Source of the DNA: Actinomycetota bacterium
Lineage (GTDB): Bacteria; Actinomycetota; Coriobacteriia; Anaerosomatales; Anaerosomataceae
Length of the DNA stretch: 64,000 nt
Assembly: GCA_004348925.1 (NCBI GenBank)
Contig: RCMX01000002.1
Span: 258,909-322,908 of the forward strand
Direction: 5' to 3'
In this document: piece after piece, positions 3,737 through 27,653 of the stretch
Numbering within the stretch: the first letter of the stretch is position 1
How the letters are laid out: each line of letters opens with the position of its first letter
Program-made: the position numbers and the translations under genes
The notes under the pieces: model-generated
The model's input: only the letters and a program-made list of their open reading frames with translations
Database searches by the model: none
Told to the model about the DNA's origin: nothing

Positions 3737-3740
3737 CGCG

Positions 3741-5335: not shown

Positions 5336-5339
5336 GCTC

Positions 5340-9127: not shown

Positions 9128-10797
9128 CCGCCGCATCCGGCAAGAGACTCGGTAAAGTCCTGGTGCAGTCAGGCCTGATCACCCAGGAGCAGATGGAGAC
9201 GGCGGTCGCCGCCGCGGACGGTCGCTCGCTCACCGCTGTGCTGATCGAGCAGGGCGTGGCTTCTGACACCAAGATCGCGCAGGCGGTCGCGGAGAGCATG
9301 GGGCTCGCGTTCGTCGACCTCGCAGGCTATGAGATCGATCCGAGCGCCGCGATGCTGCTATCGAACGACCTTGCGCGGCGTCACATGGTGCTGCCCATCA
9401 AGATCCAGGACGACGAGCTCGTGGTCGCTATGGCGGACCCCGCCAACATCTTCGCCATCGACGACCTTCGCATCGTCACGGGCTACGAGATCCGGCCCGT
9501 CGTGGCCACCGAGAGCGATGTCACCAACGCGATCGAGAAGTTCGCGACCATGAATCAAAACGTCGACCAGATGGTTGGCGATCTGGGTGACATCGATGTC
9601 GAGGCGGAGCGGGAGGCCGAGGAGGCGGCCGCCGACGAAGAGGCGCCCGTCGCAAAGCTCATGAACCTCATCGTTACCGAGGCCATTCGACAGGGCGCGG
9701 GCGACATCTATGTGGAACCCCTTGAGACAGAACTCCGCGTCCGGTACCGCATCGACGGTGTGTGCCAGGTCGTGATGAAGAGTCCCATCAAGCTGCACCG
9801 GCAGCTGCTCAGCCGCATCAAGATCGCCTCGGGAATGGATATCGCCGAGAAGCGCATCCCGCAGGACGGACGTTTCGGCGTGGTTCTTGATGGCAAGACC
9901 GTCGACTTCCGTGTCGCGGTCTTGCCAGCGGTCAACGGCGAGATGTGCGTCATGCGACTCCTGCGCAAGGATTCGATTATGCTCTCTCTGGAGGACCTCG
10001 GATTCCTGGAAGAGCCGATCGGACGGCTGCTGGATGCGCTCGAGAAGCCGTACGGCTGCATTCTTGTCACGGGACCGACCGGCTCGGGTAAGTCCACCAC
10101 GCTGTACGCGGCCATCAACAAGACGACCAGTCCGACCGTGAACCTCATCACGGTGGAGGATCCGGTCGAGTATCGACTTGAAGGACTCTCGCAGGTGCAC
10201 GTGAACGAGAAGGCGGGTCTCACGTTCGCCTCGGCACTGCGGTCGATCCTCCGGCAGGATCCCGATGTTGTGATGATCGGTGAGATCCGGGATAAGGAGA
10301 CCGCCACCATCGCCATCGAGGCGGCCCTTACCGGGCACCTCGTTCTGTCGACGCTGCACACCAACGATGCGCCGTCGGCGCTTACCCGACTGACCGAGAT
10401 GGGTGTCGAGCCGTTCCTCTCGGCATCGGCCATCAACTGCGTGCTCGCGCAACGTCTCGGTCGACGCCTCTGTCCCGAGTGCAAAGAGGCGTACACGCCC
10501 ACAGCCGAGGCGCTCGATCGTGTCGGATTCCCGTACGAACCGGACAAGATCCCCACCCTCTACCGGGCGGTCGGTTGCAAGCGCTGCGGCGACATCGGCT
10601 ACAAGGGACGCATGGGTATCCATGAGGTCATGACCGTCACCGAGGAGATCGAGCGTGCGTGCGTGAATCACGCGTCAGGCGATGACATCAAGCGCATCGC
10701 TGTGGCGTCAGGCATGCGCACGCTGCGCGATGACGGTTTCGCCAAGGTGCTCATGGGCGTGACGTCGATCGAGGAAGTCCTGCGCGTCGTTGTGTGA
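9124..10797 (+). CDS. pilB: Type IV pilus extension ATPase PilB/GspE (paralog 1)
   Basis: Cytoplasmic hexameric ATPase that powers pilin assembly (557 aa). The N-terminal MshEN-like region starts RLGKVLVQSGLITQEQ (residue 8 on). The catalytic part has Walker A GPTGSGKST (317-325, Lys323), Asp box LITVEDPVEY, Walker B DPDVVMIGEIRD and His box GHLVLSTLHTNDAPS. A four-Cys zinc site is formed by CPECKE and CKRCGD. The start ATG overlaps the aroE stop, placing the true N-terminus well inside the long upstream open frame. A second copy (15171-16841) lies about 4.4 kb downstream with Walker A at the same residue number. Confidence 0.95.
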   Translation: MTAASGKRLGKVLVQSGLITQEQMETAVAAADGRSLTAVLIEQGVASDTKIAQAVAESMGLAFVDLAGYEIDPSAAMLLSNDLARRHMVLPIKIQDDELVVAMADPANIFAIDDLRIVTGYEIRPVVATESDVTNAIEKFATMNQNVDQMVGDLGDIDVEAEREAEEAAADEEAPVAKLMNLIVTEAIRQGAGDIYVEPLETELRVRYRIDGVCQVVMKSPIKLHRQLLSRIKIASGMDIAEKRIPQDGRFGVVLDGKTVDFRVAVLPAVNGEMCVMRLLRKDSIMLSLEDLGFLEEPIGRLLDALEKPYGCILVTGPTGSGKSTTLYAAINKTTSPTVNLITVEDPVEYRLEGLSQVHVNEKAGLTFASALRSILRQDPDVVMIGEIRDKETATIAIEAALTGHLVLSTLHTNDAPSALTRLTEMGVEPFLSASAINCVLAQRLGRRLCPECKEAYTPTAEALDRVGFPYEPDKIPTLYRAVGCKRCGDIGYKGRMGIHEVMTVTEEIERACVNHASGDDIKRIAVASGMRTLRDDGFAKVLMGVTSIEEVLRVVV

Positions 10798-11576: not shown

Positions 11577-13652
11577 ATGGCACTTCGCGGCAATCTCAGG
11601 GACTTCTCACTACCCGATGTCTTCCAGCTTGTACAACTGAGCAAGAAGACGGGGGTCTTGCGCATCACGAGTTCGGACGCCGACGGAAGCATCTGGTTCC
11701 GCGACGGCGACGTCTTCTTCGCGCAGTCGAACTGGCATCGCGATCCGCTCGGCCAGCGGCTGGTGACCACCGGGCGCATCACGCCGAGTGCGCTCGTGAA
11801 GGCGCTTGAGATCCAGCGCGTGGAGCCTGTGGGTGGTCGTCGTCTCGGGCAGATCCTCGTCGACGAAGGCTACCTCACCGACAAGGTGCTCGAGACGTTC
11901 GTGCAGGAGCAGATCCAGGACACCATCTTCGATCTGATGCGTTGGGACGAAGGCGACTTCGATTTCGAGGTTCTGCCGGAAGTGGCCGACGAAGATATCG
12001 GCCTCTCAGTGTCGATCGAGAACATCGTCATGGAGGGTAGCCGCCGTCTCGAAGAGTGGAACCGGATCAAGAAGAAGGTTCCCTCTGTGGAGATGGTCTT
12101 CAAGATGGCCACCGCTCCCGGCGAGGGAACGTTCGAGATCTCGCTCAAGCCGAGTGAGTGGGCGCTCTTGCTGCTGGTTGACGGCACCCGCGATATCTCC
12201 GATCTCGCCACCGCGATGAACAAGACCGACTTCGAAGTCGCTCGTGTCATCTACGGTCTCTTCTCGGCCGGACTGCTCGAAGTCCCCTCTGAGGATGAAG
12301 TCGAACGGCTTCGGGCGGAACGCGCGGGGCGTGAAGACAAGCGTGCCAACCTCGAGGCCGAGCGTCGTGCACGCGATGAGGCGGCGGCACTCGAGGCGAT
12401 CAATCTTGAGGCGGAGATTGCGGCGGAAGCCGCGGCACGCCAGGCCGCCGAGCAGCGGGCCGCTCAGCAGCTCGAGCAGGAGCGAGCCGATGAGGCCGAA
12501 GCCGGGGCTGCCGCTGTCGCCGCCGACCTGGCTTCTCAGGCCGCTCAGGCGGAAGCGGAGCCGCATGAAGAGCCTGAGTTCCTGTCGGTGACCAAGACGC
12601 GCGCCTCTGCCGAGGATATGGCGATCTTCGCCGAGATGATGGAAGCCGTTCTCGATCACCCCGTCGAGGCGGAACCCGAGCCCGAACCGGCACCTGCACC
12701 GGAACCGGTACCGGAGCCCGAACCGGAACCGGAACTCGAACCGGAGCCCGAACCTGAGCCGACACCGGAACCGGAACCGGAACCGGAACCGGAACCGGAG
12801 CCCGAGCCCGAACCCGAACCCGAACCCGAACCCGAACCCGAACCCGAACCGGTACTGGAAGCCGAGCCGGAACCCACACCCGCACCGGAACTTGAACCGG
12901 AACCGGAACCCGCACCCGTGCCGGAACCGGAACTCGAATTGGAGCCTGAGCCCGAGCCAGAAGTCGGCATCGACGCGGAAGCGCTGTTCGGTGCGCTGAA
13001 TGCAGTGGAGACGAGCGAGATTCCTGCTCCGCCTATCGCCGAACCTCTGTCCGAGACAGCGGCCCAGGTCGTCGAGACGCTTCCCACGACCGTGATGACA
13101 GGCGACCTGGAGACCGATCTCAGGGCGCTCGGGCTTGGTGAGACGCCGGTGGAGCTTGCCCTGGAACCTGTCCTCGAGAACGCGGTCGAGGGCGCCGAAT
13201 CAGCGTATCTTGATTTCCCGGTGGCACCGGCAATGGAACCCGAGTCCGAGCCCGAGCCCGAGCCGGAATACGAACCCGAACCCGGGCCGGAGCCCGAGCC
13301 CGAGCCGGAACCCGAACCCGAACCGACTCGGATATCCTCGGCGACGAGCGACCTGGACGACTTGCTCAGGTCCCTGTCTGCCGACGATGAGACGCTTGAG
13401 CCCGCCGAGCCGACGACGGGAGTCATCTCCACGGATGCGTATCTCGCCGAGTTCGAAGGAGACACGACGCTCAGCTACGGTCTTGGCGATGAGATCACCG
13501 CCCTCACAGGCGGCGGCGGAGCCGCGCGTTCTCGCCCCGTCGCAACGGTGGGCAAGATCCCCGACTCCGAAGACAGCGTGGTGCTGCACCGGGACCAGCT
13601 TGTGGACCGTGACCTGCTTATGAAGATCATCGAAGGCATCGAGAAGCTCTGA
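11577..13652 (+). CDS. PATAN/DUF4388 domain protein with Glu-Pro repeat rods
   Basis: 691-residue cytoplasmic protein. The N-terminus (about 1-50; [20 protein letters not shown]) is a DUF4388/PATAN domain. Residues 57-80 and 89-112 form two RLGxxLV..G.I..-type 24-residue repeats like those of MshEN c-di-GMP domains. A winged-helix-like segment follows near 190-245 ([17 protein letters not shown]). Then come an Ala/Glu coiled coil (about 255-335), a first Glu-Pro rod (366-462), a loosely ordered linker, a second short Glu-Pro rod (554-583) and a conserved-looking C-terminus ([18 protein letters not shown]). PATAN proteins act on PilB in cyanobacteria; here the gene sits between roadblock and GTPase genes in a pilus locus. 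Exact function unknown. Confidence 0.85.
12672..12962 (+). repeat. Glu-Pro coding hexanucleotide tandem repeat (large)
   Basis: In-frame tandem of gaaccg/gaaccc/gagccc hexamers encoding (Glu-Pro)n, interrupted by a few Ala, Leu, Thr and Val codons. The most uniform block is at about 12796-12846, where cccgaa repeats back to back. Because the unit is 6 nt, slippage would lengthen or shorten the rod without a frameshift. Confidence 0.9.
13236..13325 (+). repeat. Glu-Pro coding hexanucleotide repeat (short)
   Basis: Second Glu-Pro stretch of the same gene (residues 554-583), with Ser, Tyr and Gly interruptions. It is separated from the first by about 90 ordinary codons. Confidence 0.85.
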
Positions 13653-13668: not shown

Positions 13669-14196
13669 ATGCAGTCAGTGAAAGTCGTCGTCACAGGTCC
13701 ATTCAACGCAGGAAAGACGACCTTCATAAAGTCGGTCAGCGAGATCACGGTGCTCTCAACGGAGCGTCAGGTCAGTGATGTCTCCGGTGAGGGTGGGGGA
13801 GAGACCACCGTTGCGATGGACTTCGGCCGGATTACGATCTCGGATGACGTCGTCCTCTACCTTTTCGGCACGCCGGGCCAGGAGCGGTTCTCCTTCATGT
13901 GGGAGACACTGTCCGAGGGCATGCTCGGGTTCGTGCTGCTCGTCGATGCGAAGAGCCAGGATTCGATTCGCGACGCGGCTTCCATGATCGAGTTCTTCAC
14001 GGACATGTCTGACGTTCCGTTTGTCGTCGCGGCGAACAAGGTAGATGCGAACGACTCGCAGACGCTTTCGGCAGTGCGTGCCAGCTTGGGGCTTGCCGAC
14101 GACGTGCCGCTGTTGGCCTGCAATGCCAAGGAGAAGGACAGCGTGAAGTCTGTGCTGCTTGGCCTGCTCTACCGCATTCTCGACAGCATGAGATGA
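13669..14196 (+). CDS. Small Ras-like GTPase (conservon CvnD/MglA-like)
   Basis: 175-residue single-domain GTPase. P-loop GPFNAGKTT (10-18), switch II GTPGQERF, G4 NKVD (123-126) and a G5-like CNAKEKD are all present. The GPF-x-x-GKTT and PGQ-RF-FMW layout is that of conservon CvnD-type proteins rather than Rab/Ras. No membrane segment or obvious lipidation signal is seen. Its likely partner is the roadblock protein encoded at 10938-11537. Location between pilB1 and pilB2 argues that it switches pilus machinery activity or polarity, as MglA does in Myxococcus (inference). Its stop overlaps the next ATG (ATGA). Confidence 0.9.
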   Translation: MQSVKVVVTGPFNAGKTTFIKSVSEITVLSTERQVSDVSGEGGGETTVAMDFGRITISDDVVLYLFGTPGQERFSFMWETLSEGMLGFVLLVDAKSQDSIRDAASMIEFFTDMSDVPFVVAANKVDANDSQTLSAVRASLGLADDVPLLACNAKEKDSVKSVLLGLLYRILDSMR

Positions 14197-15062: not shown

Positions 15063-15170
15063 CACGAGCGAATCCGTCGCCCAAGACCGCCAGTTTGTCG
15101 TACCATGAGCACACACGTTCGGGGGACGTGTGGGCTTGTTCGTCCAGACCGTTCGCATCAGGGAGTGCTC

Positions 15171-16841
15171 GTGGCGGAAGCCGGTCAGCGACTGGGACAG
15201 CTTCTCCAACGCGCGGGTGTCATCACCGAGCGTCAGCTGAACGACGCCCTTGAAGTCCACAAGGCGACCGGAAGCCCCATCGGCCGTGTCCTGGTGGACC
15301 TCGGATACGCGACGCAGGGCGCGATTCTCGCCGTCATGGCTCGTCAGATAGGCATCCCGTATATCGATTTCGCCGAGAAGAAGCCCGATCCTCACGCCAT
15401 CTCGATCGTTCCGCGCGACCTGGCCGCTCGCTACACGTTGATGCCTGTCGAGTTCGACGACGAGAATCACCTTCTCGTCGCGATGGCCGACCCACAGAAC
15501 GTGCTTGCGCTTGACGACCTGCGCATCATCACCGGCTATGAGATCCGCCCGGCGATCTCCACGAAAGACGACATCCTCGCCGCTATCGAGGACTATTACA
15601 AAGTCGCCGAGCATGTTGACACCGATTTTCTCGATGGTGACGACGGCGGCAATCTCGACCTTGAGGCGCTCACCGAAGTGTCTGATGAGGCCCCGATCGT
15701 CAAGCTGGTCAACTACATCATCAACAAGGCCGTCTCGGACCGTGCGTCCGACATCCACATCGAGCCTCAGGAGAAGGATCTCCGCGTCCGCTATCGCGTT
15801 GACGGCGTGCTTCACGAGGTCATGCGAAGCCCGAAGGCAACGCAGCAAGCCATCATCAGCCGCTTCAAGATCATGTCGGACATGGATATCGCTGAGAACC
15901 GCAAGCCGCAGGACGGACACACTGCGCTCACGATCGCCGGCCACAAGATGGACTTCCGCGTTTCCACGCTTCCGACGGTGTATGGCGAGCGGGTCGTTCT
16001 CCGTATCCTCCGCAAAGACAACATCATGCTGCGGCTTGAGGACCTTGGCTTCTTGCCCGGCACGCTTGAGCGGTTCGAGTCGTCGTTCCGCAAACCTTAC
16101 GGCGCGATTCTCGTTACCGGGCCGACCGGTTCCGGCAAGTCGACCACGCTCTACGGCGCGGTGAACGTCCTCAACGACCCGGCCAGGCACATCCTTACCG
16201 CCGAGGATCCGGTCGAGTATCGCCTGCCGGGAGTGAACCAGGTGCAGACCAATGCACGCGCAGGGCTGACGTTCGCGCGGGCGCTGCGCTCCTTCCTGCG
16301 ATGCTCACCGGACATCATCCTTGTCGGTGAGATCCGAGACCAGGAGACGGCGAAGATCGCCATCGAGTCCGCGCTCACCGGCCACCTCGTGCTTTCGACG
16401 CTCCACACCAACGATGCGCCGGGCGCCATCACCAGACTCACCGAGATGGGCGTCGAGCCGTTCCTCGTAGCGTCGGCCGTCGACTGCGTACTCGCGCAGC
16501 GGCTTGCCCGCAAGCTGTGCGGCGACTGCAAAGAGGAGTACGCTCCTCAGAAGCAGGCGCTGTTGGACGCGGGCTATCCTGCCGACAATCTGCCTGACAA
16601 GCTCTTCCGCGCCGTTGGCTGCAAGAAGTGCGGGGGGACCGGGTATCGCGGTCGGATGGGCTTGCACGAAGTAATGCTGCTGTCCGAGGAGATCGGCGAT
16701 CTTACCGTCAAGGAGGCCACCTCCGAGGAGATCAAGCAGGTGGCGATGGCTCAGGGGATGCTCACGCTGAAGCAGGACGGCCTTGAGAAGGTTCGTATGG
16801 GTGCTACCTCGATAGAGGAGATCATGCGGGTTGTCGCGTAA
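15171..16841 (+). CDS. pilB: Type IV pilus extension ATPase PilB/GspE (paralog 2)
   Basis: 556 residues and collinear with paralog 1 (Walker A GPTGSGKST again at 317-325). The N-terminal MshEN is well preserved: two 24-residue motifs at 7-30 and 36-59, separated by exactly 5 residues. Asp box LTAEDPVEY, His box GHLVLSTLHTNDAPG and the zinc Cys (CGDCKE, CKKCGG) are present. The segment before Walker B reads RCSPDIILVGEIRD instead of the usual RQDPD. GTG 15171 is preferred (GGGAG at 15161-15165); an upstream in-frame start at 15105 has no good SD. The 108-nt gap before it holds a 7-bp hairpin (cacacgt/acgtgtg, 15113-15133) and no clear promoter. Confidence 0.95.
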   Translation: MAEAGQRLGQLLQRAGVITERQLNDALEVHKATGSPIGRVLVDLGYATQGAILAVMARQIGIPYIDFAEKKPDPHAISIVPRDLAARYTLMPVEFDDENHLLVAMADPQNVLALDDLRIITGYEIRPAISTKDDILAAIEDYYKVAEHVDTDFLDGDDGGNLDLEALTEVSDEAPIVKLVNYIINKAVSDRASDIHIEPQEKDLRVRYRVDGVLHEVMRSPKATQQAIISRFKIMSDMDIAENRKPQDGHTALTIAGHKMDFRVSTLPTVYGERVVLRILRKDNIMLRLEDLGFLPGTLERFESSFRKPYGAILVTGPTGSGKSTTLYGAVNVLNDPARHILTAEDPVEYRLPGVNQVQTNARAGLTFARALRSFLRCSPDIILVGEIRDQETAKIAIESALTGHLVLSTLHTNDAPGAITRLTEMGVEPFLVASAVDCVLAQRLARKLCGDCKEEYAPQKQALLDAGYPADNLPDKLFRAVGCKKCGGTGYRGRMGLHEVMLLSEEIGDLTVKEATSEEIKQVAMAQGMLTLKQDGLEKVRMGATSIEEIMRVVA

Positions 16842-16882
16842 GGATTCTTGCAGGAAGCCGCTTTCGGGGAGGGGTGCGGCCG

Positions 16883-17947
16883 GTGTTGGACTTGAACGAA
16901 CTACTCACGCGGCTCGTCGAGCTTGACGGGTCCGATCTGCACATCACCGTCGGGATGCCGCCCGTGATGCGCGTCAACGGCAAGCTGGTGCCCACCGAGG
17001 GTCCGCGCCTCACGCCTCGAGACTCCAAGGAGATGCTCTACTCCATCCTCACGCAGGAGCAACGCGAGAAGCTTGAGCGCGACTGGGAGTTCGACTTCGC
17101 TTATGCGCTGCCAGGAGTTGCCCGCTTCAGGGTCAATGCATACTTCCAGAGAGACAGCCTGGGCGCCGCCTTCAGGCATATCCCGGTCGGCATCAAAGGG
17201 TTCGAGGAACTCGGCCTTCCGAAGATCTTGCCGGAGTTCTGCAAGAAGCCACGCGGGTTCGTGCTCGTCACCGGCCCCACCGGTTCCGGAAAGTCCACGA
17301 CGCTTGCCTCGATGGTGGACTACATCAATTCATCGCAAGAGGTACACATCATCACCATCGAGGATCCGATCGAGTATCTGCACCAGCATCGTCGATCGGT
17401 CATCAACCAGCGCGAGGTCGGTGCCGACACGCATAGCTTCTCCAATGCGCTCAAGTACATCCTGCGCCAGGACCCAGACGTGATCCTCATCGGCGAGATG
17501 CGTGATCTGGAGACCGTCGCTGCGGCCCTCACCGCCGCCGAGACAGGCCACCTCGTGTTTGCGACGTTGCACACACAGGACGCCGCCCAGACAATCGACC
17601 GCGTCATCGACGTGTTCCCGCCCTACCAGCAGCAGCAGGTGAGGATCCAGCTCGCCGGCACCCTTCAGGGAATCGTCAGTCAACAACTGTTGCCCACGCC
17701 CGACGGGAAGAGCCGCGTCGTCGCCGCCGAGGTCCTTGTGCCCACACCCGGCATCCGGAACATGATCCGAGAGGGCAAGACGCATCAACTCATGAGTGCG
17801 ATGCAGGCGGGACAGCAGTATGGTATGGTCACGATGGATCAGAGCCTCGCGGACCTCCACAAGCGCGGGCTCGTGACGCTCGACTATGCGCTTCAGAGAT
17901 CGGTCGATCCGAACGTGCTGAAAACACTGTTGGGCCGCGCGCCGTAG
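16883..17947 (+). CDS. pilT: Type IV pilus retraction ATPase PilT
   Basis: 354-residue cytoplasmic ATPase that powers pilus disassembly and twitching. The N-terminal ELDGSDLHITVGMPP is the PilT-type PAS-like start. Walker A GPTGSGKSTT, Asp box ITIEDPIEYLH, Walker B DPDVILIGEMRD and His box GHLVFATLHTQDA follow. The C-terminal GIRNMIREGKTHQL corresponds to the PilT-specific AIRNLIRE motif needed for retraction, separating it from the PilB copies. GTG 16883 is chosen because GGAGG (16868-16872) is 10 nt upstream; GTG 16874 would leave only 1 nt. Confidence 0.95.
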   Translation: MLDLNELLTRLVELDGSDLHITVGMPPVMRVNGKLVPTEGPRLTPRDSKEMLYSILTQEQREKLERDWEFDFAYALPGVARFRVNAYFQRDSLGAAFRHIPVGIKGFEELGLPKILPEFCKKPRGFVLVTGPTGSGKSTTLASMVDYINSSQEVHIITIEDPIEYLHQHRRSVINQREVGADTHSFSNALKYILRQDPDVILIGEMRDLETVAAALTAAETGHLVFATLHTQDAAQTIDRVIDVFPPYQQQQVRIQLAGTLQGIVSQQLLPTPDGKSRVVAAEVLVPTPGIRNMIREGKTHQLMSAMQAGQQYGMVTMDQSLADLHKRGLVTLDYALQRSVDPNVLKTLLGRAP

Positions 17948-17961
17948 GAAGAGGAGACGCC

Positions 17962-19176
17962 ATGGCCACTGTGACCTTCAAATACAGCGTCCGAGACAAG
18001 GCCGGCAAGGTCGTCAACGGCAAGCTCGAAGGAGAGAGTCGAGACGCGGTAGCCGCGAAGTTGCGGCAAATGGGCTACATCATCCTCGACCTGAACGAGG
18101 ATCGTCTTGCCGCGCTGAACAAGATCCAGTTCGGCACGACCATCAAGGCAAAGGACATCACCATCTTCGCCCGGCAGTTCGCGACGATGATCAACGCCGG
18201 ACTCTCGCTGACGAAGTGCCTGAGCATCCTGGCGGGTCAGTCCGAAAGCAAAGAGCTCCGCGAGGTCATCGCGCAGGTCGGTCGCGACGTAGAGGCTGGC
18301 CAGTCGCTTTCCGAGGCGATGGCCAAGCATCCGAAGCCGTTCCCGCCGATCTTCATCAACATGGTGCGCGCCGGCGAGACCGGTGGTGTGCTCGATGAGG
18401 TCCTCGTCCGCGTGGCGGATCATTTCGAGCGTGACGCTTCTCTCAAGGCAAGGATCAAGTCAGCGATGACCTATCCGGTCGCTATGGGTTCTCTCGTCCT
18501 TATCGTCTTGGTTGCGATGATGATCTTCGTCGTGCCCACCTTCCAGAAGATGTTCAGCGACATGGGAGGAAAGCTGCCGCTCCCGACGCAGATACTTGTG
18601 AACATCTCCGAGGGAGTACGCAGTTGGCCCGGGCTTGTCGTACTTGTTGTCAGCATTGGCTCCTACATCGGCTTCAAGTTGTGGGTTGGGACCGAGTCGG
18701 GCCGTTTCATCTGGGACGGCATCAAGCTTCGCATGCCGGTCATCGGCGGCATGGTCCGCAAGCTTGCACTGGCTCGATTCACTCGAACATTCGGCACCCT
18801 CGTCGCCGCAGGCGTTCCGATCCTCTCGGCGTTGGAGATCGTCGCCGAGACTGCTGGCAACGAAGTCGTCTCCCGTGCCGTCAAGAAAGTGCGCTCTGCA
18901 ATCAAAGAGGGCGAGACCATCGCGAAACCGCTCGGGGAGTCGCCCGTGTTCCCGTCGATGCTCGTCCAGATGATAGCGGTCGGCGAGGAGACCGGCGCGC
19001 TTGACGCCATGCTCTCCAAGATCGCGGACTTCTACGATGAGGAAGTATCAACGGCGGTCGACGGTCTGACATCGCTCATCGAGCCGCTCATGATGGCGAC
19101 GCTCGGTGTCATCGTCGGTGGCATCGTCATCGCGCTCTACATGCCGATGTTCCAGGTCATCACGCTCGTCAAGTAG
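17962..19176 (+). CDS. pilC: Type IV pilus inner-membrane platform protein PilC
   Basis: 404-residue polytopic protein with two GspF domains. The N-terminal part (YSVRDKAGKVVNGKLEGES) is cytoplasmic. Domain 1 holds FARQFATMINAGLSL and the conserved PPIFINMVRAGETGG. A membrane helix pair lies near residues 175-235. Domain 2 has the parallel block LARFTRTFGTLVAAGVPI and IAVGEETGALD, and a C-terminal helix ends YMPMFQVITLV. PilC is the platform contacted by PilB and PilT, here encoded directly upstream. Confidence 0.95.
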   Translation: MATVTFKYSVRDKAGKVVNGKLEGESRDAVAAKLRQMGYIILDLNEDRLAALNKIQFGTTIKAKDITIFARQFATMINAGLSLTKCLSILAGQSESKELREVIAQVGRDVEAGQSLSEAMAKHPKPFPPIFINMVRAGETGGVLDEVLVRVADHFERDASLKARIKSAMTYPVAMGSLVLIVLVAMMIFVVPTFQKMFSDMGGKLPLPTQILVNISEGVRSWPGLVVLVVSIGSYIGFKLWVGTESGRFIWDGIKLRMPVIGGMVRKLALARFTRTFGTLVAAGVPILSALEIVAETAGNEVVSRAVKKVRSAIKEGETIAKPLGESPVFPSMLVQMIAVGEETGALDAMLSKIADFYDEEVSTAVDGLTSLIEPLMMATLGVIVGGIVIALYMPMFQVITLVK

Positions 19177-19285: not shown

Positions 19286-19666
19286 ATGCGGATGTTCAAG
19301 AAGGATGAGGGCTTTACCCTCGTCGAGCTCATGGTCGTCGTTCTCATTATCGGTATTCTTGTTGCTATCGCGATCCCGGTCTTCAACGCAGCGTCTGACA
19401 GCGCCCGGCTTCGCACCTGCCAGTCGAACCAGCGCACGATCGAGGGTGCCGTTCAGCAGTACCTGGCCGCCGACCCGGACAACGCCTGGGCTGCCGACCT
19501 CGTTGACTCTGGCAACATCCTGGTTACTGACAGCTACATCAAGACCGCGCCGACCTGCCCGGCCACGGGTGGCGGGACGTATGGTGTCAATGCTTCCGGT
19601 ACCGTCACCGGCGACAACGGTGCGAACCCCGGCAACTTTACTGCCACGGGTCACAGTCACTTCTAG
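19286..19666 (+). CDS. pilA: Major type IV pilin (type IVa prepilin)
   Basis: Prepilin of 126 residues. The short basic leader MRMFKKDEG is cut after Gly9, giving a mature protein that starts FTLVELMVVVLIIGI with the required Glu5. The hydrophobic assembly helix is followed by a small globular domain with two cysteines (RTCQSN and APTCPA) that may form a disulfide. The C-terminus is Gly/Thr/Asn-rich and ends HSHF. A longer in-frame start at 19247 lacks any SD; ATG 19286 has AGGAGG 9 nt upstream. A strong hairpin follows the gene. Placed before pilD and the other prepilins, it is the likely main pilus subunit. Confidence 0.93.
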   Translation: MRMFKKDEGFTLVELMVVVLIIGILVAIAIPVFNAASDSARLRTCQSNQRTIEGAVQQYLAADPDNAWAADLVDSGNILVTDSYIKTAPTCPATGGGTYGVNASGTVTGDNGANPGNFTATGHSHF

Positions 19667-19781: not shown

Positions 19782-20615
19782 TTGGATGCAGTCCCCATAT
19801 GGTTCTTCCTTCTGTCTGCCGGGTTGTTCGGTCTGCTCTTCGGCAGCCTTGCGAACGTCATCATCTGGCGCGTGCCGCGTGGCGAGTCCATAATCGCCCC
19901 TGGCTCTCACTGTCCGTCATGCGAGTCGGCGATCCGTTGGTACGACAACATCCCCGTCATCTCGTGGGTGATTCTGGGCGCACGCTGCCGCGAGTGTGGG
20001 GTACGGATCTCCGCGCGGTACCCGATTGTCGAGGCTGCCTCAGGGCTTCTGTGGCTGGTGGCTGCGGCGACCTGGGGAATGAGCATTCAGACGCTCTTCG
20101 GCATCGGGCTGTTCTACCTTCTGCTGGTCCTCACGCTCATAGATCTCGACCACATGAGGCTGCCGAACTCGATCGTCGCGGCGCTTGGGGTCATTGGGGT
20201 TGTCGGTGTGACTGTAGCGCAAGTCACGGGCGAGCCGGCGGTCCCGCTGTTCGTCGGACGCGGGTTGCTCGACACGCCGCTGGCGTATGCGGTCAGCGGC
20301 GTCCTCGTCGGCGGTGGCATCAGCGTCGCCATGGCGGGCTCATATGCGCTTATCAGGAAGTCCGCCGGACTCGGCATGGGAGATATCAAACTGCTCGCTG
20401 TGCTCGGCCTGTACTTCGGACCCTACGTTCTCATGGTGTTGATGATCGCCAGTCTTCTCGGCGCAGTCGTCGGCGTAGTGGCGCTCCGTCGACAGAGCGG
20501 CTCAGCAAGAGCACGCATCCCCTTCGGACCGTTTCTCGCAGCAGGGGCACTCGTCGTAGCGTTGTGGGGACCGTTGGTGTTGGACTGGTACCTGAGACTT
20601 GCGGGTGTTCGATAG
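19782..20615 (+). CDS. pilD: Prepilin peptidase / N-methyltransferase
   Basis: 277-residue membrane aspartyl protease that cuts prepilin leaders and methylates the new N-terminus. TM1 is followed by GSLANVIIWRVPRGESI, then a cytoplasmic four-Cys zinc domain (CPSCESAIRWYDNIPVISW, CRECG). The catalytic Asp pair is in LIDLDHMRLPN and LGMGDIKLL. The TTG start at 19782 is supported by GGGAGGAG just upstream and by the family N-terminus. A small single-substrate cluster is implied because all the prepilin-like genes surround it. Confidence 0.95.
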   Translation: MDAVPIWFFLLSAGLFGLLFGSLANVIIWRVPRGESIIAPGSHCPSCESAIRWYDNIPVISWVILGARCRECGVRISARYPIVEAASGLLWLVAAATWGMSIQTLFGIGLFYLLLVLTLIDLDHMRLPNSIVAALGVIGVVGVTVAQVTGEPAVPLFVGRGLLDTPLAYAVSGVLVGGGISVAMAGSYALIRKSAGLGMGDIKLLAVLGLYFGPYVLMVLMIASLLGAVVGVVALRRQSGSARARIPFGPFLAAGALVVALWGPLVLDWYLRLAGVR

Positions 20616-20770: not shown

Positions 20771-22300
20771 ATGGTTCACATCATGCGTGGCGCGATCGAT
20801 CGCGACGAGGGCATGTCCGTTCTCGAGATCATGATTGCGGCTGTCATTCTCTTCATCGTACTGACCGGCGTGCTCGGACTCGTCGGTACGACCACTATGA
20901 TGGGCGTCGATGCCAAACAGAGGAACGTGATGGTGAACGCGCTCAATGCCTACGTGGAGCGCGTTCAGTCTCTTCCGTTCAGCTCGGTCGACCTGGAGGC
21001 GAACGGTGGTGCGCTCGCTTCTGAAGAATCGACGAGGGTCGGCGAATTCACCGTGACGATCCGGCCGGCGGTCGAAGATGGCGCGAATGCGGCGCTCAAG
21101 AATCTCACCGTTTCTATCACGATATCGGCGCCGCGGCGCACGAACGTCTCTATGACGACTACGGTGCCGATTCGTGACCGTAGCCAGTTCCTGACGCAGG
21201 CGAACCGGTCTCCTGAAACCGATCCTTCAATTGCGTTCATCGACGCCTACACGCCACCGGAGGGTTCGGTGGTGTGGGGCACTTCGTGCGTGGGAGCCAC
21301 CGGGGTCCTGAAGCTTGCGGTCGAGGCGGCCGCATCCGAGGGCCGCGTTATCACCAACGTCGCACTGTGGATCGATGATTCGTATCTGGCAAAGGACACG
21401 CTACTCAACCAAGCCACATGGAATCCTGCTACGCAGGACTTCTCTGAGTCGACGTTTGTGTGGGACACGCGCCAGACGGAAGATGTCGTGCAGGACGACG
21501 GAGTGACGTATCTGCCCGTCGAGATCATCGCTGATGGCATGCGGACGGTGAGCGCGTACGTGCTGGATGACCAGGGCGTCAGCGTCTACACCGTGCGCCA
21601 TTTTCTTGTGGACAATCACGAACCTGGCATACCTGGAGTACCGGTCACCACCGTCGAATCGAACACGAGCGCGACGCTGAACTGGCTCAAGTCGTCCGAT
21701 GGGACCACGGACTCGGACCACTATCAAGTGCGGATGTTCAAGCAGCCACTGGGTGATACCGGTTCCGTTTCTCCCTTCGAGCACTGGCCGGAGGTATCGG
21801 TGGGCACGCCCGCAGGAACCTCGCTTGCGTACACGGAGGGGACCTCGTTCTCGCGTTACTATCCCGTCGTCCGCGCACTGAGTCCCCGCCCTCTTGCGTC
21901 GGAGTACACGACCGGAAGCCCGATCTTCGTGACCCGTCCTCTCATCACCGGGGGGTACAAGATCACGCAAGACAATAAGAAGTACACAGTGACCTCCTCG
22001 CTCACGTGCTCTGCGCCGACGTTCCCAACGTCAGGCCTCACCTATCGTTGGTACCGGTTCTCGGCGGATGCTCCGACACCGGTGGCGGTCGGAACCGGCG
22101 CGAGCCTCACCGCGGACTCGGTGGTGCTGACCGTGCAGAACCAGAACACCCCCTGCCCCAAGGTCAGCTATTACTGCGTCGCCTCGTACACGCCACTTGG
22201 AGTAGGCGGCGGTACGCCGGAGACCAAGACATCCAACACCATAGCGACCACCGCAACCGGTGTCGTCGGTAGCACTGCGTACGGGGTGGGGACATGGTGA
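20771..22300 (+). CDS. Large minor pilin with Ig/fibronectin-like ectodomain
   Basis: About 509 residues. The N-terminus is a prepilin signal: DRDEG followed by MSVLEIMIAAVILFIVLTG, with Glu at mature position 5. After the assembly helix comes a pilin-like head (about 45-145). An Ig-like region (GVLKLAVEAAASEGRVITNV, ALWIDDSYLAK), a fibronectin III-like module (PGIPGVPVTT, ATLNWLKSSDG, SDHYQVRMF) and a further beta-rich C-terminal part with two or more Cys follow. Such a size is far above ordinary minor pilins and suggests a tip adhesin (inference). ATG 20771 is tentative; GTG 20762 and ATG 20783 are alternatives. The longer frame to 19799 is a pilD shadow. Confidence 0.8.
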   Translation: MVHIMRGAIDRDEGMSVLEIMIAAVILFIVLTGVLGLVGTTTMMGVDAKQRNVMVNALNAYVERVQSLPFSSVDLEANGGALASEESTRVGEFTVTIRPAVEDGANAALKNLTVSITISAPRRTNVSMTTTVPIRDRSQFLTQANRSPETDPSIAFIDAYTPPEGSVVWGTSCVGATGVLKLAVEAAASEGRVITNVALWIDDSYLAKDTLLNQATWNPATQDFSESTFVWDTRQTEDVVQDDGVTYLPVEIIADGMRTVSAYVLDDQGVSVYTVRHFLVDNHEPGIPGVPVTTVESNTSATLNWLKSSDGTTDSDHYQVRMFKQPLGDTGSVSPFEHWPEVSVGTPAGTSLAYTEGTSFSRYYPVVRALSPRPLASEYTTGSPIFVTRPLITGGYKITQDNKKYTVTSSLTCSAPTFPTSGLTYRWYRFSADAPTPVAVGTGASLTADSVVLTVQNQNTPCPKVSYYCVASYTPLGVGGGTPETKTSNTIATTATGVVGSTAYGVGTW

Positions 22301-22866
22301 CGATGGCTCCCTCGATGCGACGCGAAGACGGCTTCACGCTTACCGAGCTGCTTGTTGTGCTTGGCCTGTTGTCCGTGATCCTGGGTGCCGCGTGGCTCGG
22401 GTTCCAGGTTGCGAACAACGGAAGCAAGGCGAGCGACCGGCAGTCGTATATCAGCCATGAAGTCGGCTTTCCACTCGACTACATGGAGCGCATCCTCATT
22501 CAGAACTACGGCTTCGACAACACGTACCCAGGGACAACCGGCTACCGCGTTGCCGCTCTCACCGATCGTGACAATGACGGGCATCCCGAGAAGTACATCT
22601 TCGAGGCGACGAGCGCGGGCGTACTACAAGTCACTACGTCCGAAGAGGTTGATAGGCCGACGCCGAAGGTGTACGTGATCTCGGAGCACAACAGCAACGT
22701 TGCGCAGACGAAGGTGCTGTTCAAGTACTTCGACGCGAACCTCAACGAAATCACGAACATGGGAAACGTCGATAGCCAGGCGCGCAGCATGTCGATGACG
22801 ATCGTGACTACCTATGACGGGCAGTCGTTCTCCGACACGCGTCGCGTGTTCTTCCGCAACCGCTAG
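22294..22866 (+). CDS. Minor pilin (prepilin-type N-terminal cleavage domain)
   Basis: 190 residues. The leader MVTMAPSMRREDG is cut before FTLTELLVVLGLLSVILG, with Glu5 present. The head domain contains DRDNDGHPEKYIFEATSAG, resembling PilW/ComGF-like minor pilins in layout, but I cannot assign an exact family. The start overlaps the previous stop, so it is coupled to the large minor pilin. Confidence 0.85.
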   Translation: MVTMAPSMRREDGFTLTELLVVLGLLSVILGAAWLGFQVANNGSKASDRQSYISHEVGFPLDYMERILIQNYGFDNTYPGTTGYRVAALTDRDNDGHPEKYIFEATSAGVLQVTTSEEVDRPTPKVYVISEHNSNVAQTKVLFKYFDANLNEITNMGNVDSQARSMSMTIVTTYDGQSFSDTRRVFFRNR

Positions 22867-22892
22867 TGCGTAGCTACCAGGAGGTGCGTCCG

Positions 22893-24473
22893 ATGAACGC
22901 GAAGATGCGCAGATTGCTCTCCGATGAGAGTGGTGTCGCGCTCATCACCGTGATCGGCATCATGGCGGTCATCACCGTCCTTGCCGTCGGCTCGTTCGTG
23001 CTTGCCCAGCAGACGCTCTTCGAGTCCAAGAAGATCGAGGATCAGTCGCGGGCGTTCCGCGCGGCGAGCAGCGGTCTCGACGTGGTCCTCACAACCTTCT
23101 CCGACGAATCGACTGCGACCGACTTCCCGATCACCGGCGAGACGCCGGACGGCGCGTACACCGTGACGCTCGAAGACCTGGGCGGGAGCGAGTACCGCTT
23201 GATCTCTTCCGGCGTAGGCCTGGACGGTAGCAATGAGACGGTCAAGCAGCAGTTCTACTACATGAACCTCTGGAAGATGAATTTCGCGGGCACCGGGCCT
23301 CAATCTCTGATCAGCGGTTCCGGTGGCCTTGCGGGCACGTCGAACATCATCGGCCCGTTCTACATGAAGGGGAATCTCGCCATCGCGAACAACATGTCGT
23401 GTCTGGAGGGCCCGTTCTTCGTGAAGGGCGGCAATATCACCGTCGGGTCCAGCGGATCCCTTGGCACGTCGAGCACGTACGTGAAGGTCTACTGCGATGG
23501 CACCGGTAACCCCGCTGTTCCTGCGAATGGCGCCAAGGGCGGAGCAGGCGGCGTGTTTGTAACGTCAGTGTCTCGAAGCGTGCCCGATATCACGTTGCCG
23601 ACGATTACTGACGAGATGCTTGAACAGTGGGCATCCAAGTCACAGTCGGAGTCGATCGACAACATCATGGGCACGCCGGACAAGAATCTTGGCGCGAACC
23701 TCGAGACCAGCAACGGTCAGGCATCCGACTACAGCTTGATGAAGCCGCCGGGCACGCTGACCTGGACGAGGGCGATGGCGCAAGCCACACCCACGAACGT
23801 GAACTACAAGTTCATAGGGCGTGCAGACGGAACCATCTCGGCCCGAGGGGCCGGCACCACGAATCTCACGCTCGGAGGCCGTTCATTCGGTGCCTGGGGT
23901 TCGGTGACGACGACAGACGGCATCTCTCTGCCGGCGGGCCCGACAGGTGCGAATTACACGTTGGCGAACAAGCACGATGACTTTGCGTACGACGACGTGA
24001 ACAACCGTTTGTACATTTCGGGCACTGTGTTCGTGGATGGCTCGCTGACGATCAGCGAGAACATGACCTATATCGGTAACGGAAGCATCGTCGTGAATGG
24101 CCCCGTGTACATCAACGGTACCGTTCGTCCGTACGGGACGAACACTCAGGGCGAGTCGAACAAGTACGCGCTGGGTCTCGTAACGCCGGTCGACATGTAT
24201 GTGAACTTCAGCAGCAACAACAACTATGCGAACAAGAGCGCTGATGAGATTCGGGCCACGACCCCGGACCTGGCAGGAGCATTCTTCTGCCAGGGGACCG
24301 TACACTTCGGCAACAACCCGCTGGTGCGAGGGTCGGTCATCGCCGGCAAGATCGACTCCGGCGGACCCAATATGTGCCTCGTCACCAACCCGCTCCTGCC
24401 GACGTATCTTCCCGAGTCGCTCCCTGGCGTGGATCGCGGTCTGCTCATGCCGGGGCTGTGGACGCGGGGATGA
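22893..24473 (+). CDS. PilX-like minor pilin with large repetitive beta ectodomain
   Basis: 526 residues. The N-terminus RRLLSDESG-VALITVIGIMAVITV has the PilX-type signal (Gly at -1, no Glu at +5), typical of the tip-complex PilX/GspK-like class. The ectodomain is unusually long and Gly/Asn-rich. It has repeated short strands such as GPFYMKGNLAIANNMS, GPFFVKGGNITVGSSG and GTVFVDGSLTISENM, which look like a beta-helix or bactofilin-like fold. ATG 22893 is chosen because AGGAGGTG sits 6-14 nt upstream; an earlier GTG at 22866 has no SD. It closes the pilin operon. Confidence 0.8.
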   Translation: MNAKMRRLLSDESGVALITVIGIMAVITVLAVGSFVLAQQTLFESKKIEDQSRAFRAASSGLDVVLTTFSDESTATDFPITGETPDGAYTVTLEDLGGSEYRLISSGVGLDGSNETVKQQFYYMNLWKMNFAGTGPQSLISGSGGLAGTSNIIGPFYMKGNLAIANNMSCLEGPFFVKGGNITVGSSGSLGTSSTYVKVYCDGTGNPAVPANGAKGGAGGVFVTSVSRSVPDITLPTITDEMLEQWASKSQSESIDNIMGTPDKNLGANLETSNGQASDYSLMKPPGTLTWTRAMAQATPTNVNYKFIGRADGTISARGAGTTNLTLGGRSFGAWGSVTTTDGISLPAGPTGANYTLANKHDDFAYDDVNNRLYISGTVFVDGSLTISENMTYIGNGSIVVNGPVYINGTVRPYGTNTQGESNKYALGLVTPVDMYVNFSSNNNYANKSADEIRATTPDLAGAFFCQGTVHFGNNPLVRGSVIAGKIDSGGPNMCLVTNPLLPTYLPESLPGVDRGLLMPGLWTRG

Positions 24474-24574: not shown

Positions 24575-24647
24575 GACCCGGGGGAACGTCACCAACATCA
24601 CAGTAGTAGTCGAAGTCTAGTCGTGGCACAGATTGAAGGAGGATCCT

Positions 24648-25769
24648 TTGAGTTCGATCTCCTTCGGCAGCAGTTCGTCGACAGTAGGCCTGGATATCGG
24701 GACCGATCACGTGCGTGCTGTGCAGCTACGGCCCGCGGGTGCTGGCTTCCTTCTCACGGGCTACGGTGCGGTCGAAGTGCCGATGGGTGCGGTCGTCGAG
24801 GGCGAGATCGTCGATATCGATGCCGTAACCTCCGCTATTCGTGAAGTGTGGCGTCGCTCCGGGGTCCGGGGCAAAGACGTCTGTATCGGCGTTTCCAATC
24901 AGAAGGTCATCGTTCGTCTCATCGACCTTCCCTTCATGGAGCGCGCCGAGCTTGCCGGAGCCATCCAGTATCAGGCCCAAGACTACATTCCGATGGCCAT
25001 CGAGGAATCGATTCTCGACTTTCAGATCATCGGCGACTACATGACTCCGAGCGACGAGCACATGATGGAAGTGCTGCTCGTCGCTGCGCACCGCGACATG
25101 ATTGGTTCCACAGTCGCGGCGGTAGAGGGCGCCGGATTGCGTCTCAGCCAGATCGATGTCTCGTCCTTTGCGATCGTGCGAGCACTCATGGGACCCAATG
25201 GGATGTCCGATCTCGACGAGTCCGGTTTTGCCACGGGGATCATCCACATCTCTTCTGGGATCACCAACATCGCAGTGGTCGAGAAGGGGATTCCGAGGTT
25301 CAATCGCATCTCGTCGCTCGCCGGCAATCAGTTCACGCAGGCAATCGCGAACGTGCTCAACCTCACCTTTGATGAGGCCGAGCAGCTGAAGATCAACGTC
25401 GGGCTTCCGGATATCGATGGCGGGGCCGTTCAGACCCCTCCTGACGTGGATCCTGCGATGGCGCCGATCGTTCAAGACTCGCTAGAACGTGAAGTCAACA
25501 AGTTCATCGCCGAGGTTCGGCGGTCGCTTGACTACTACCTCACTCAGACCTCTCAGGTGCGCACCATCCAGCGGATACTGCTGACGGGAAGTGGTGCACA
25601 GCTCAGGAATCTTCCGAAGTATCTCGAAAAGGGACTTCAGGCGCAGGTCGTGATCGGTGACCCGCTTGCGCGGGTCCAGGTCCCAGCCAATCTCCAGCAA
25701 GCCGTCTTTGCCGACCGTATGGGCAGCGCGACCGCCATCGGACTTGCGATGGGAGGAGTTGAGCTGTGA
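24648..25769 (+). CDS. pilM: Type IV pilus assembly protein PilM (actin-like ATPase)
   Basis: Cytoplasmic actin/FtsA-fold protein (373 aa) that binds the PilN N-terminus. It opens with STVGLDIGTDHVRAVQL (phosphate-1 loop), then has CIGVSNQKVIVRLIDLPFM, the pilM-typical QYQAQDYIPMAIEE, the adenosine loop ILLTGSGAQLRNLPKYLE and a C-terminal GSATAIGLAMGGV. TTG 24648 is preferred over TTG 24633 because the strong SD AAGGAGGA (24636-24643) would otherwise lie inside the coding sequence. Its stop overlaps pilN. Confidence 0.93.
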   Translation: MSSISFGSSSSTVGLDIGTDHVRAVQLRPAGAGFLLTGYGAVEVPMGAVVEGEIVDIDAVTSAIREVWRRSGVRGKDVCIGVSNQKVIVRLIDLPFMERAELAGAIQYQAQDYIPMAIEESILDFQIIGDYMTPSDEHMMEVLLVAAHRDMIGSTVAAVEGAGLRLSQIDVSSFAIVRALMGPNGMSDLDESGFATGIIHISSGITNIAVVEKGIPRFNRISSLAGNQFTQAIANVLNLTFDEAEQLKINVGLPDIDGGAVQTPPDVDPAMAPIVQDSLEREVNKFIAEVRRSLDYYLTQTSQVRTIQRILLTGSGAQLRNLPKYLEKGLQAQVVIGDPLARVQVPANLQQAVFADRMGSATAIGLAMGGVEL

Positions 25770-26365
25770 TGCGCATCAACCTGCTTCCTCCCGAGATTCT
25801 TGAGAAGCGAAAAGGCGAGAAGCGACTGGTGTACGTGGCGGTTGTTGCGGTTATCGTCGTCATCGTTCTGGCGGGCGTGTACGGTCTTGCGTACATGCAG
25901 ACAAGCGCCAAGAAGACGCAAGTCGCTGCCCGGGAGCAGGAGCTGGCGACCACGCAGACGCGCGCGAACGAGCTGGCGGTGTTCGAGGAGAAATCGCTTG
26001 AACTCGAGCGACGTAAGGCCGTCGCCGACACCGCGCTCGCAGGTCGCTTCAACTGGTCGCGTCTGTATGACGAGATCTCACTCGTCATGCCCACTGACCT
26101 CTGGGCCACCGTTCTCAACACAGATGAGAACACGGGACTGACGCTTGATGGCTACGCACTTGACAGCGCTTCGGACACACCGGATCTGGGCCACAAGTCG
26201 ATCGCGAAGCTGCTCGTTCGGCTGGCCGATCTCGATCAGCTGTACGATGTCTGGCTGACGAACGCGGCAAAGACCGAGTTGAACGAGCGCGGCGTCATCC
26301 AGTTCAGTGTCACCGCTGGCGTCAGCGAGTCTACGGTCGCGTCTTCGGGCGCCGGGAATCAGTAA
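25766..26365 (+). CDS. pilN: Type IV pilus alignment protein PilN
   Basis: 199-200 residue bitopic protein. The first residues RINLLPPEILEKRKGEK are the conserved PilM-binding motif (INLLP). One membrane helix follows (about 22-44), then a coiled coil rich in Ala/Glu/Gln and a small ferredoxin-like domain (WATVLNTDENTGLTLDGYAL). GTG 25766 or ATG 25769 starts; GGGAGGAG upstream serves both. It links cytoplasmic PilM to extracytoplasmic PilO. Confidence 0.9.
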   Translation: MMRINLLPPEILEKRKGEKRLVYVAVVAVIVVIVLAGVYGLAYMQTSAKKTQVAAREQELATTQTRANELAVFEEKSLELERRKAVADTALAGRFNWSRLYDEISLVMPTDLWATVLNTDENTGLTLDGYALDSASDTPDLGHKSIAKLLVRLADLDQLYDVWLTNAAKTELNERGVIQFSVTAGVSESTVASSGAGNQ

Positions 26366-26380
26366 GGACGGGGTGACAGT

Positions 26381-27019
26381 ATGAACCGACTATCAGCCCA
26401 GACTCAGATGATTCTCGCTGCGGTACTCATAGCGCTTATTGTCGTCGGCGCGCTCTTCTTGGGGGTTCTGCCTGAATTCGACAGAGCGAAGCAGCTTGAC
26501 ACCCAGATTCAGGACCTGGATGGTCAGATCAACACAGCCAAGCTCCTGGTCAGCCGCAGGCAGAGTGCAAAGGCACAGGCGGCTCAGACCGAGGTCGACC
26601 TGATCAAGATCGCCAACCAGGTTCCCGAGTCTCCGGAGTTGCCCTCGCTGATCATCAATCTGCAAGACACCGCGAACGCTGCTGGACTGGATTTCGTGCA
26701 GATCGCGCCAGCGGTTCCCACCGCGGTGGTCGACCAGGGCGGACAGCCTGCTGGCTACACATCGATCGCGATCGAGGTGAAGGTCGAGGGCCAGTGGGCC
26801 GACATGATCGACTACATCAGCAGGCTCAGCAAGTACACGCGCGGGGTTCGGGTCAAGACCGCAGCGTTCTCTAGCGTCGCTGGCACGGACGCGAAGGACC
26901 GCTACGTCGAGGGAAGGATCAGCCTCGTGGTCTACACGATGTCTGTCATCAATGTGAATGCCCCTGCCGTTCCGTCTGCGCCGGTCACGCCGCCCGCGGA
27001 CGCACAGCCTTCGCAGTAG
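26381..27019 (+). CDS. pilO: Type IV pilus alignment protein PilO
   Basis: 212-residue bitopic protein with a TM near residues 8-30 (QMILAAVLIALIVVGALFLG), a coiled coil (AKQLDTQIQDLDGQINTAKL) and a PilO/GspM ferredoxin-like domain (LPSLIINLQDTANAAGLDFV, IAIEVKVEGQWADMIDYI). It forms heterodimers with PilN in other systems. The gene lies 15 nt after pilN in the expected order. Confidence 0.9.
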   Translation: MNRLSAQTQMILAAVLIALIVVGALFLGVLPEFDRAKQLDTQIQDLDGQINTAKLLVSRRQSAKAQAAQTEVDLIKIANQVPESPELPSLIINLQDTANAAGLDFVQIAPAVPTAVVDQGGQPAGYTSIAIEVKVEGQWADMIDYISRLSKYTRGVRVKTAAFSSVAGTDAKDRYVEGRISLVVYTMSVINVNAPAVPSAPVTPPADAQPSQ

Positions 27020-27038
27020 TTCGACGGAAGGGAATACC

Positions 27039-27653
27039 GTGCCCGACGAGTTCGCAGTTCCCGAGACCGGACAACCGGTTGCGGCCGTGCCTGTTGAGGC
27101 GGCAGCACCAGCGAAGAAGACCAGCAAGGGTCTGCTGATAGCGCTCGGTGCGCTGGCGATCCTTGTCGTCATCGGCGCTGTCGCTGCGGTGCTTGTGCTG
27201 TTCGTGTTCCAGACATCGACTGACAACAGCGTTGAGGTCCGTGTGCCGGAGGGACAGACGGCACAGGCGGGTACCTCGGCAACGACCACCGAGACCGCAG
27301 AAGCGGGATCGCCCGCTGCGGCTGTTTCCAATTCGGAGGTCTTCACGTTCCGTGATATCTTCGCACCGCTGGTTGGCGCTACCTCCACGGAGACTTCCGC
27401 CACCGAGACGACCACCGATACGGTCGTTCCGGGCGACTATGCGGCAGATACCCTGTACCTCATCGCCATCGGTTCCGAGAGCGGCGTGCCGTCTGCGAGC
27501 ATGATTTGGAACTCGCAGACCTACACGCTGAACGAAGGCGACACGATTCCGAACACTCCCTGGAAGGTCTTCGACATCCGTACGAGCGATGTCATCATGC
27601 TCTACGGCGACCAGCAGGTCGTTCTGTCGGTCGGGCAGGGCATATCCAAGTAG
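27039..27653 (+). CDS. PilP-like bitopic pilus assembly protein
   Basis: 204 residues, GTG start with GGAAGGGA upstream. A Pro/Ala-rich cytoplasmic N-terminus, one TM at about 31-56 (LLIALGALAILVVIGAVAAV) and a Thr/Ser/Glu linker precede a compact C-terminal domain. That domain begins FTFRDIFAPLVG and continues LYLIAIGSESG, TLNEGDTIPNTPWKVFDI, MLYGDQQVVLSVGQG. This resembles the PilP/GspC HR domain (the RDPF entry motif plus the small beta domain). PilP normally binds the outer-membrane secretin PilQ; no secretin gene is present and the cell appears monoderm, so the role must differ. Placed where pilP belongs, after pilO. Confidence 0.7.
   Translation: MPDEFAVPETGQPVAAVPVEAAAPAKKTSKGLLIALGALAILVVIGAVAAVLVLFVFQTSTDNSVEVRVPEGQTAQAGTSATTTETAEAGSPAAAVSNSEVFTFRDIFAPLVGATSTETSATETTTDTVVPGDYAADTLYLIAIGSESGVPSASMIWNSQTYTLNEGDTIPNTPWKVFDIRTSDVIMLYGDQQVVLSVGQGISK

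Follow-up and report, generated by a model that had tools for sequence, protein, structure and literature searches.

What part do two minor prepilins of more than 500 residues play in the type IVa pilus of an actinobacterium? The question is raised by a 64,000-nucleotide stretch of DNA, hereafter the window, from an Actinomycetota bacterium of the class Coriobacteriia and the order Anaerosomatales (assembly GCA_004348925.1, contig RCMX01000002.1, positions 258,909 to 322,908 of the forward strand), whose source genome is 99.2% complete and in 7 contigs. Three consecutive prepilin genes fill positions 20771-24473 of the window, between pilD and pilM of a type IVa pilus operon. They are V, at the PilV position (20771..22300, + strand, 509 amino acids (aa)), W, at the PilW position (22294..22866, + strand, 190 aa), whose first 7 nucleotides are shared with the end of V, and X, at the PilX/GspK position (22893..24473, + strand, 526 aa), preceded by AGGAGG. 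The initial annotation had picked out V and X as two open reading frames (ORFs), and both are present at the lengths it gave, each with a prepilin leader. Its view that minor pilins of this size are abnormal was too strong, modular pilins being widespread according to PMC8179133, which counts more than 1,200 such proteins in 264 architectures.

We consider it probable that a secretin-less (monoderm-type) type IVa pilus has V, X and the small W pilin as its tip-initiating complex, the positional equivalent of GspI-J-K or PilV-W-X, in which X would be the cap and the V-W-X cassette would set the ligand. PilB, PilD and PilM are present in the source genome and a family search returned no secretin match there (its control matched in 6/14 genomes), so the pilus is read as a monoderm-type type IVa pilus. 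We place V, W and X at its tip because no secretin was recognised, X lacks Glu5, X resembles the pilin ComZ of Thermus thermophilus, and V-W-X occupies the slot before pilM.

The leader of X has Gly-1 and no Glu5, and Glu5 is absent from all 40 aligned X relatives. An AlphaFold2 model built on 7 sequences (mean predicted local distance difference test (pLDDT) 66, predicted template modelling score (pTM) 0.64) lays X out as a pilin helix (residues 13-68), a sheet (80-125), a predicted beta-solenoid (about 130-510) and a last pilin strand (516-525). When 849 Foldseek candidates were aligned to this model with VIA-align, ComZ (6qvi_A) ranked first with a Z of 23.8, with a root-mean-square deviation of 6.7 A over 333 aligned residues and 22% identity, the alignment spanning 50-526 of the model and 8-524 of the chain. 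The next family consisted of ice-binding-protein solenoids, with Z of 14.4 and below, which covered the solenoid only; the nearest fold to the ComZ solenoid is reported to be an ice-binding protein as well (PMC6561018). ComZ was also the first PDB sequence match of a profile of the 40 relatives (E=0.0032; next 0.91), a match made up of four collinear stretches, each of low single score, and single-sequence PDB searches, including phmmer with X, were empty. In ComZ the solenoid is inserted between the penultimate and last strands, which was used as an argument for a tip location (PMC6561018). On this view the conserved C-terminus of X (..LLMPGLWTR) would form the last pilin strand on its return to the sheet, and the solenoid would be inserted at the same point as in ComZ. 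The fold of X and its relation to ComZ are predictions, and they bear out the earlier reading of its repeated strands as a beta-helix.

Family databases say little about X. Pfam gave no match for X of the window and a sub-threshold N_methyl match only for V, and the NCBIfam matches of the two proteins (GspK, Verru_Chthon and ComGE) were all weak and below cut-off. We did not file X as GspK proper because the match reached 21.3 bits (E=1.6e-4) against a cut-off of 130. Pfam DUF7305, of which we found no mention in the open-licence PMC literature, matched 5/40 X relatives at E<=0.01, X of the window not among them. Metagenome-assembled genomes among the named relatives include Coriobacteriia bacterium and Actinobacteria bacterium HGW-Actinobacteria-1, the X of the latter being 94% identical.

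V is assigned by its leader (RDEG^MSVLE) and by profile and model matches. The leader contains both Gly-1 and Glu5, kept in 38/38 aligned relatives; an alternative start is the ATG at 20783. The protein comprises a helix (17-66), a pilin beta-sheet (86-135) and about three modules of immunoglobulin (Ig)/fibronectin III (FN3) type at roughly 150-284, 285-388 and 389-505, with approximate borders. Its model (7 sequences, mean pLDDT 68, pTM 0.44) predicts strand-rich modules from residue 135 to about 505. A profile of the 38 relatives matched FN3 chains in the PDB, mostly at profile positions of about 276-365. Foldseek returned 230 matches to the model at E<=0.001, the best 50 of the 230 being mainly multi-FN3/Ig chains, and VIA-align likewise gave FN3/Ig chains, the best 50 matches listed being tied at Z 11.2 to 10.3. 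At E<=0.01, Pfam fn3 was detected in 5/38 V relatives, V of the window not among them, and N_methyl in 22/38, with V of the window below cut-off. The Ig/FN3 character proposed for V in the initial annotation is therefore upheld by the profile of relatives and by the model, and the structure predictions it had called for gave V as a pilin with strand-rich modules and X as a pilin with an inserted solenoid, at moderate pLDDT. By profile and model, V is a modular type IV pilin, with a non-pilus-specific FN3/Ig domain placed after the pilin module. W, by comparison a small pilin, matches N_methyl and IV_pilin_GFxxxE over cut-off, and Glu5 is present in 39/39 aligned W proteins. A W profile search for a PilA2-like partner did not have 6qvf among the matches listed.

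We next consider how widely this arrangement occurs. Among 149 genomes of the class, relatives of X were found in 51 and relatives of V in 48, with both in 47; by hand count, 4 genomes had X only and 1 had V only. The order pilD-V-W-X-pilM was unbroken in 34 of the 40 mapped X-bearing loci, which were selected for having X and are no survey of all pilus operons. Exceptions were L053, where a further pilin separates pilD from V, L074, with no recognised V, L073, with V and X only and no pilus machine gene, and L078, L080 and L086, which are cut short. Family counts were made without L067 and L084 (the same loci as L006 and L004) and the synteny count without L047-L050 (other loci of the source genome), while L080 (a fragment) was left out of A3 and L073 (a 246-aa V fragment) out of A4. 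With V and X relatives together in 47/149 genomes and 34/40 loci in shared order, the find is not due to chance. Median pairwise identity was 0.75 for PilB, 0.73 for PilC and 0.65 for PilM, as against 0.36 for X, 0.33 for W and 0.27 for V, so that V and W are the most divergent and X does not exceed PilO (0.36) and PilP (0.35) in variability. Outside the class, a search that matched 85/296 genomes, many of them over the pilin part only, found V-W-X triads resembling that of the window (type 1, see below) in other Actinomycetota, placed likewise between pilD and pilM in L106, L108, L109, L110 and L113 and away from recognised pilus genes in L112.

A second stand-alone triad lies in the source genome on contig 2 (L047, 6400-9774), comprising V2 (491 aa, with CarboxypepD_reg/SpaA-type repeats), W2 (about 205 aa) and X2 (424 aa). 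Pilus-family profiles recognised no other pilus genes around it in a 16-kilobase stretch. X2 and its 8 relatives, hereafter type 2 as distinct from the type 1 of the window, all lack Glu5 (9/9). The type-2 profile had no meaningful PDB match and in Pfam a sub-threshold Bactofilin match only; the sequence pattern suggests a solenoid here too. By hand count, PilM is present in 55 genomes of the order; 47 of these have a strong type-1 X, in a few cases partial at contig ends, and 8 a strong type-2 X, 2 genomes having both (G000 and G055). Of the 8 without a strong type-1 X, 6 have a type-2 X.

In two genomes, G093 and G059, the type-2 triad replaces type 1 in the pilD-pilM slot. Comparison of G093 with G013, a type-1 member of the same genus, showed replacement of the whole triad with its flanks kept: PilB, PilC, PilD and PilM are 84%, 91%, 73% and 68% identical, whereas V, W and X are alike at just 27-29%, over partial stretches. 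Other placements were found as well. G043, G019 and G087 have no triad in the slot and a type-2 triad elsewhere, with a small further pilin between pilD and pilM in G087; in G101 the type-2 triad directly follows pilP; two genomes have a type-2 triad elsewhere beside a filled slot; and in G095 (L123) the slot between pilD (5480-6328) and pilM (4065-5192) is empty. The V-W-X triad thus shows signs of being a cassette that is exchanged between relatives while the pilus machine is kept.

In reviewed systems, pilus assembly starts at a complex of minor pilins at the tip, whose capping subunit has no Glu5 (PMC10191384). X would suit the role of cap, and V and W would fit as the next subunits. We infer tip location, complex formation, ligand binding and retraction along the following lines. 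PilD would cleave V, W and X; X, without Glu5, would cap the filament and hold its ComZ-type beta-solenoid fixed on top through the insertion before the last strand of its pilin sheet. Built into the sheet in this way, the solenoid would be rigidly displayed. V would dock below X and point its Ig/FN3 modules outward, PilB and PilM-N-O would assemble PilA beneath the tip complex, and the PilT-like ATPase would retract the bound ligand, V-W-X as a single exchangeable cassette determining what the pilus binds. The simplest function would be ligand capture followed by retraction, with a surface, a polysaccharide or other polymer, or DNA as candidate ligands. The initial annotation had V and X act as tip adhesins in place of PilY1 in a monoderm pilus; their place at the tip is well supported as an interpretation, and their replacing PilY1 as adhesins is plausible, unproven.

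The most serious alternative, which we regard as possible and clearly second to the general tip reading, is that this tip serves as the DNA receptor in natural transformation, the role suggested for ComZ, with X binding DNA and retraction delivering it to ComEA/ComEC. DNA is a real alternative as ligand because ComZ, the closest solved relative of X, binds DNA (PMC6561018), and the source genome encodes comEC with a ComEA-like ORF at its 5' end. The DNA-binding lysines of ComZ are, however, not clearly kept: at the positions of K98 and K233, located on a low-scoring alignment with the numbering offset inferred to be 2, a basic residue occurs in 6/40 X relatives (Asp in the window) and 20/40 (Lys in the window). 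X proteins are acidic (median isoelectric point 4.6), although ComZ too is described as having no marked positive patch (PMC6561018). As comEC is near-universal in the class (140/149 genomes), it does not track the cassette and its co-occurrence is uninformative. The source genome has 11 T2SSE ATPase matches, three of them within the window, and further pilins, so this pilus may not be its only filament, and DNA uptake was not assigned to it by elimination. At the comEC locus itself (L105), the ComEA-like ORF, called from a helix-hairpin-helix seen by eye, runs from 2131 to 2859 and is overlapped by the comEC frame as listed (2265-5432), which places the true comEC start further in.

That the triad merely primes assembly and a PilY1-like protein encoded elsewhere is the true adhesin seems unlikely to us. 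In Myxococcus, minor pilins and PilY1 together make the priming and tip complex (PMC7541494); here V and X themselves bear large non-pilin domains. PilY1 (PF05567) had no match in the source genome, with a control that matched in one genome, below cut-off, nor in any of the 149 class genomes, with a control that matched in none. We do not claim absence, since the control failed, and the earlier statement that no PilY1-type adhesin gene lies nearby holds to the extent of this lack of a match in the source genome. Two further readings we think very improbable. The triad could belong to a secretion pseudopilus, whose solenoid and FN3 heads would bind exported substrates like GspIJK in type II secretion, as the weak GspK match of X and a partial, below-cut-off GspG match of PilA might hint; no secretin was found, and PilT-like and PilM-P-like genes stand in type IVa order. 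V and X could also be spread along the shaft, where some minor pilins of Neisseria are placed (PMC10191384) and where a C-terminally modular V might be accommodated, an arrangement that fits poorly with an X lacking Glu5 and with a solenoid embedded in the pilin sheet, the feature from which a tip location was argued for ComZ.

Several results weigh against a ComZ-like tip complex of the type IVa pilus. The X model draws on 7 sequences at a mean pLDDT of 66, with loops 255-303 and 330-362 below a pLDDT of 50, Foldseek gave nothing for X at E<=0.001 and did not have ComZ among the best 50 matches listed, and the V model is weaker than that of X. Neither type of X was found, by hand count, in two genomes of the order that have PilM (G095 and G103). 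Conversely, genus g27 (G085, G107, G109, G123 and G131) has triads, parts of triads or X2-type proteins and no PilM (PF11104) match. Since many of the genomes are in fragments or not complete, gaps may account for some of the absences.

The preferred reading, a V-W-X tip complex, can be set beside known systems. ComZ (6qvi) is similar in size to X and is encoded beside other minor pilins, but identity is about 22%, X belongs to the pilD-pilM slot of a secretin-less actinobacterial pilus operon, and its partner V carries FN3/Ig modules. V shares with the modular pilins PilB and PilC of Streptococcus sanguinis the presence of C-terminal non-pilin modules and a setting in a monoderm-type type IVa pilus; in PilB and PilC these modules are vWA or lectin domains, whereas V has Ig/FN3-type modules and belongs to a three-gene set with a predicted solenoid cap. 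GspI-GspJ-GspK and PilV-W-X share gene order and positional roles with the triad, including a K/X subunit with no Glu5 and with a domain set into its pilin sheet, but this domain is a predicted beta-solenoid in X and an alpha-domain in GspK, V is large and modular, and PilY1 was not detected here by the search with the failed control. In Myxococcus xanthus, three alternative minor-pilin/PilY1 clusters are thought to give one machine different tips, each with four minor pilins and PilY1 (PMC13190605); here the set has three pilins, no detected PilY1, and is also replaced inside the core operon.

Modular pilins, a ComZ solenoid pilin (described as unusual in PMC6561018, whose title calls the DNA receptor unique) and alternative minor-pilin clusters are thus already known kinds. 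As far as our searches show, the combination is new: predicted ComZ-type caps in operons of secretin-less actinobacterial pili, FN3/Ig-bearing V and whole-triad replacement in one slot. No report of ComZ-type pilins in Coriobacteriia was found among the listed titles and abstract openings of the open-licence PMC literature. The tip proteins of secretin-less pili are little known, and a predicted ComZ-type architecture is encoded within the pilus operons of many genomes of a single order, as well as in some further Actinomycetota. We lean slightly towards a broader reading, in which the pilD-pilM slot would be a docking site for exchangeable V-W-X cassettes and a conserved actinobacterial machine would be re-targeted by swapping or adding them, either a ComZ-type solenoid with FN3/Ig modules or a second cap type with CarboxypepD_reg/SpaA-type repeats, the cap in one genus apparently extended into a tip fibre some 5,000 residues long. 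If so, ComZ would belong to a broad family of tip proteins and be no speciality of Thermus. The congeners between which a cassette has naturally been replaced offer a clean test of whether a V-W-X change alone alters what the pilus binds.

A very long X was found in G107, where a V-W-X-like triad (L129, 502-15462, - strand) includes an X of 4,986 aa in one open frame with no stop and no N. It has a PilX-type leader without Glu5 and a type-2 cap, followed to the end by Ig-like repeats, with 22 motif copies at a median spacing of 90 aa and a Big_13 match over the whole protein (E=1.7e-14). Its DNA contains no long tandem array. In the congener G131 (L131, 3-6314, - strand), X is at least 2,103 aa and reaches the contig end. 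The most extreme modular pilin given in PMC8179133 has 860 aa, and the listed titles and abstract openings of the open-licence PMC literature yielded no report of a pilin of thousands of residues.

The remaining genes of the operon are all on the + strand of the window, in the order PilB, PilT-like, PilC-like, PilA, PilD, V-W-X, PilM, PilN, PilO and PilP-like. The PilB-type extension ATPase (15105..16841) matches T2SSE and MshEN. It is followed by a PilT-like retraction ATPase (16874..17947), with a T2SSE match in the genome search and a name from position, and a PilC-like platform protein (17962..19176), at which no family search was aimed and whose name comes from synteny; both names are in part our assumption. 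The candidate major pilin PilA (19292..19666, 124 aa) matches N_methyl over cut-off and, partially and below cut-off, ComGC and GspG, and the prepilin peptidase PilD (19782..20615) matches A24_N_bact and Peptidase_A24. Downstream of X lie PilM (24633..25769; PilM_2, E=6.4e-59) and PilN-, PilO- and PilP-like genes (25766-26365, 26381-27019 and 26958-27653), which were named by position, with weak below-cut-off family matches and synteny in relatives. Upstream of the operon, a second PilB-type ATPase domain occurs at 9631-10785. A DUF4388 protein with long Glu-Pro repeats (11577-13652) adjoins the pilus genes and is followed, beside them, by a small GTPase-like ORF (13669-14196), which we take to be MglA-like.

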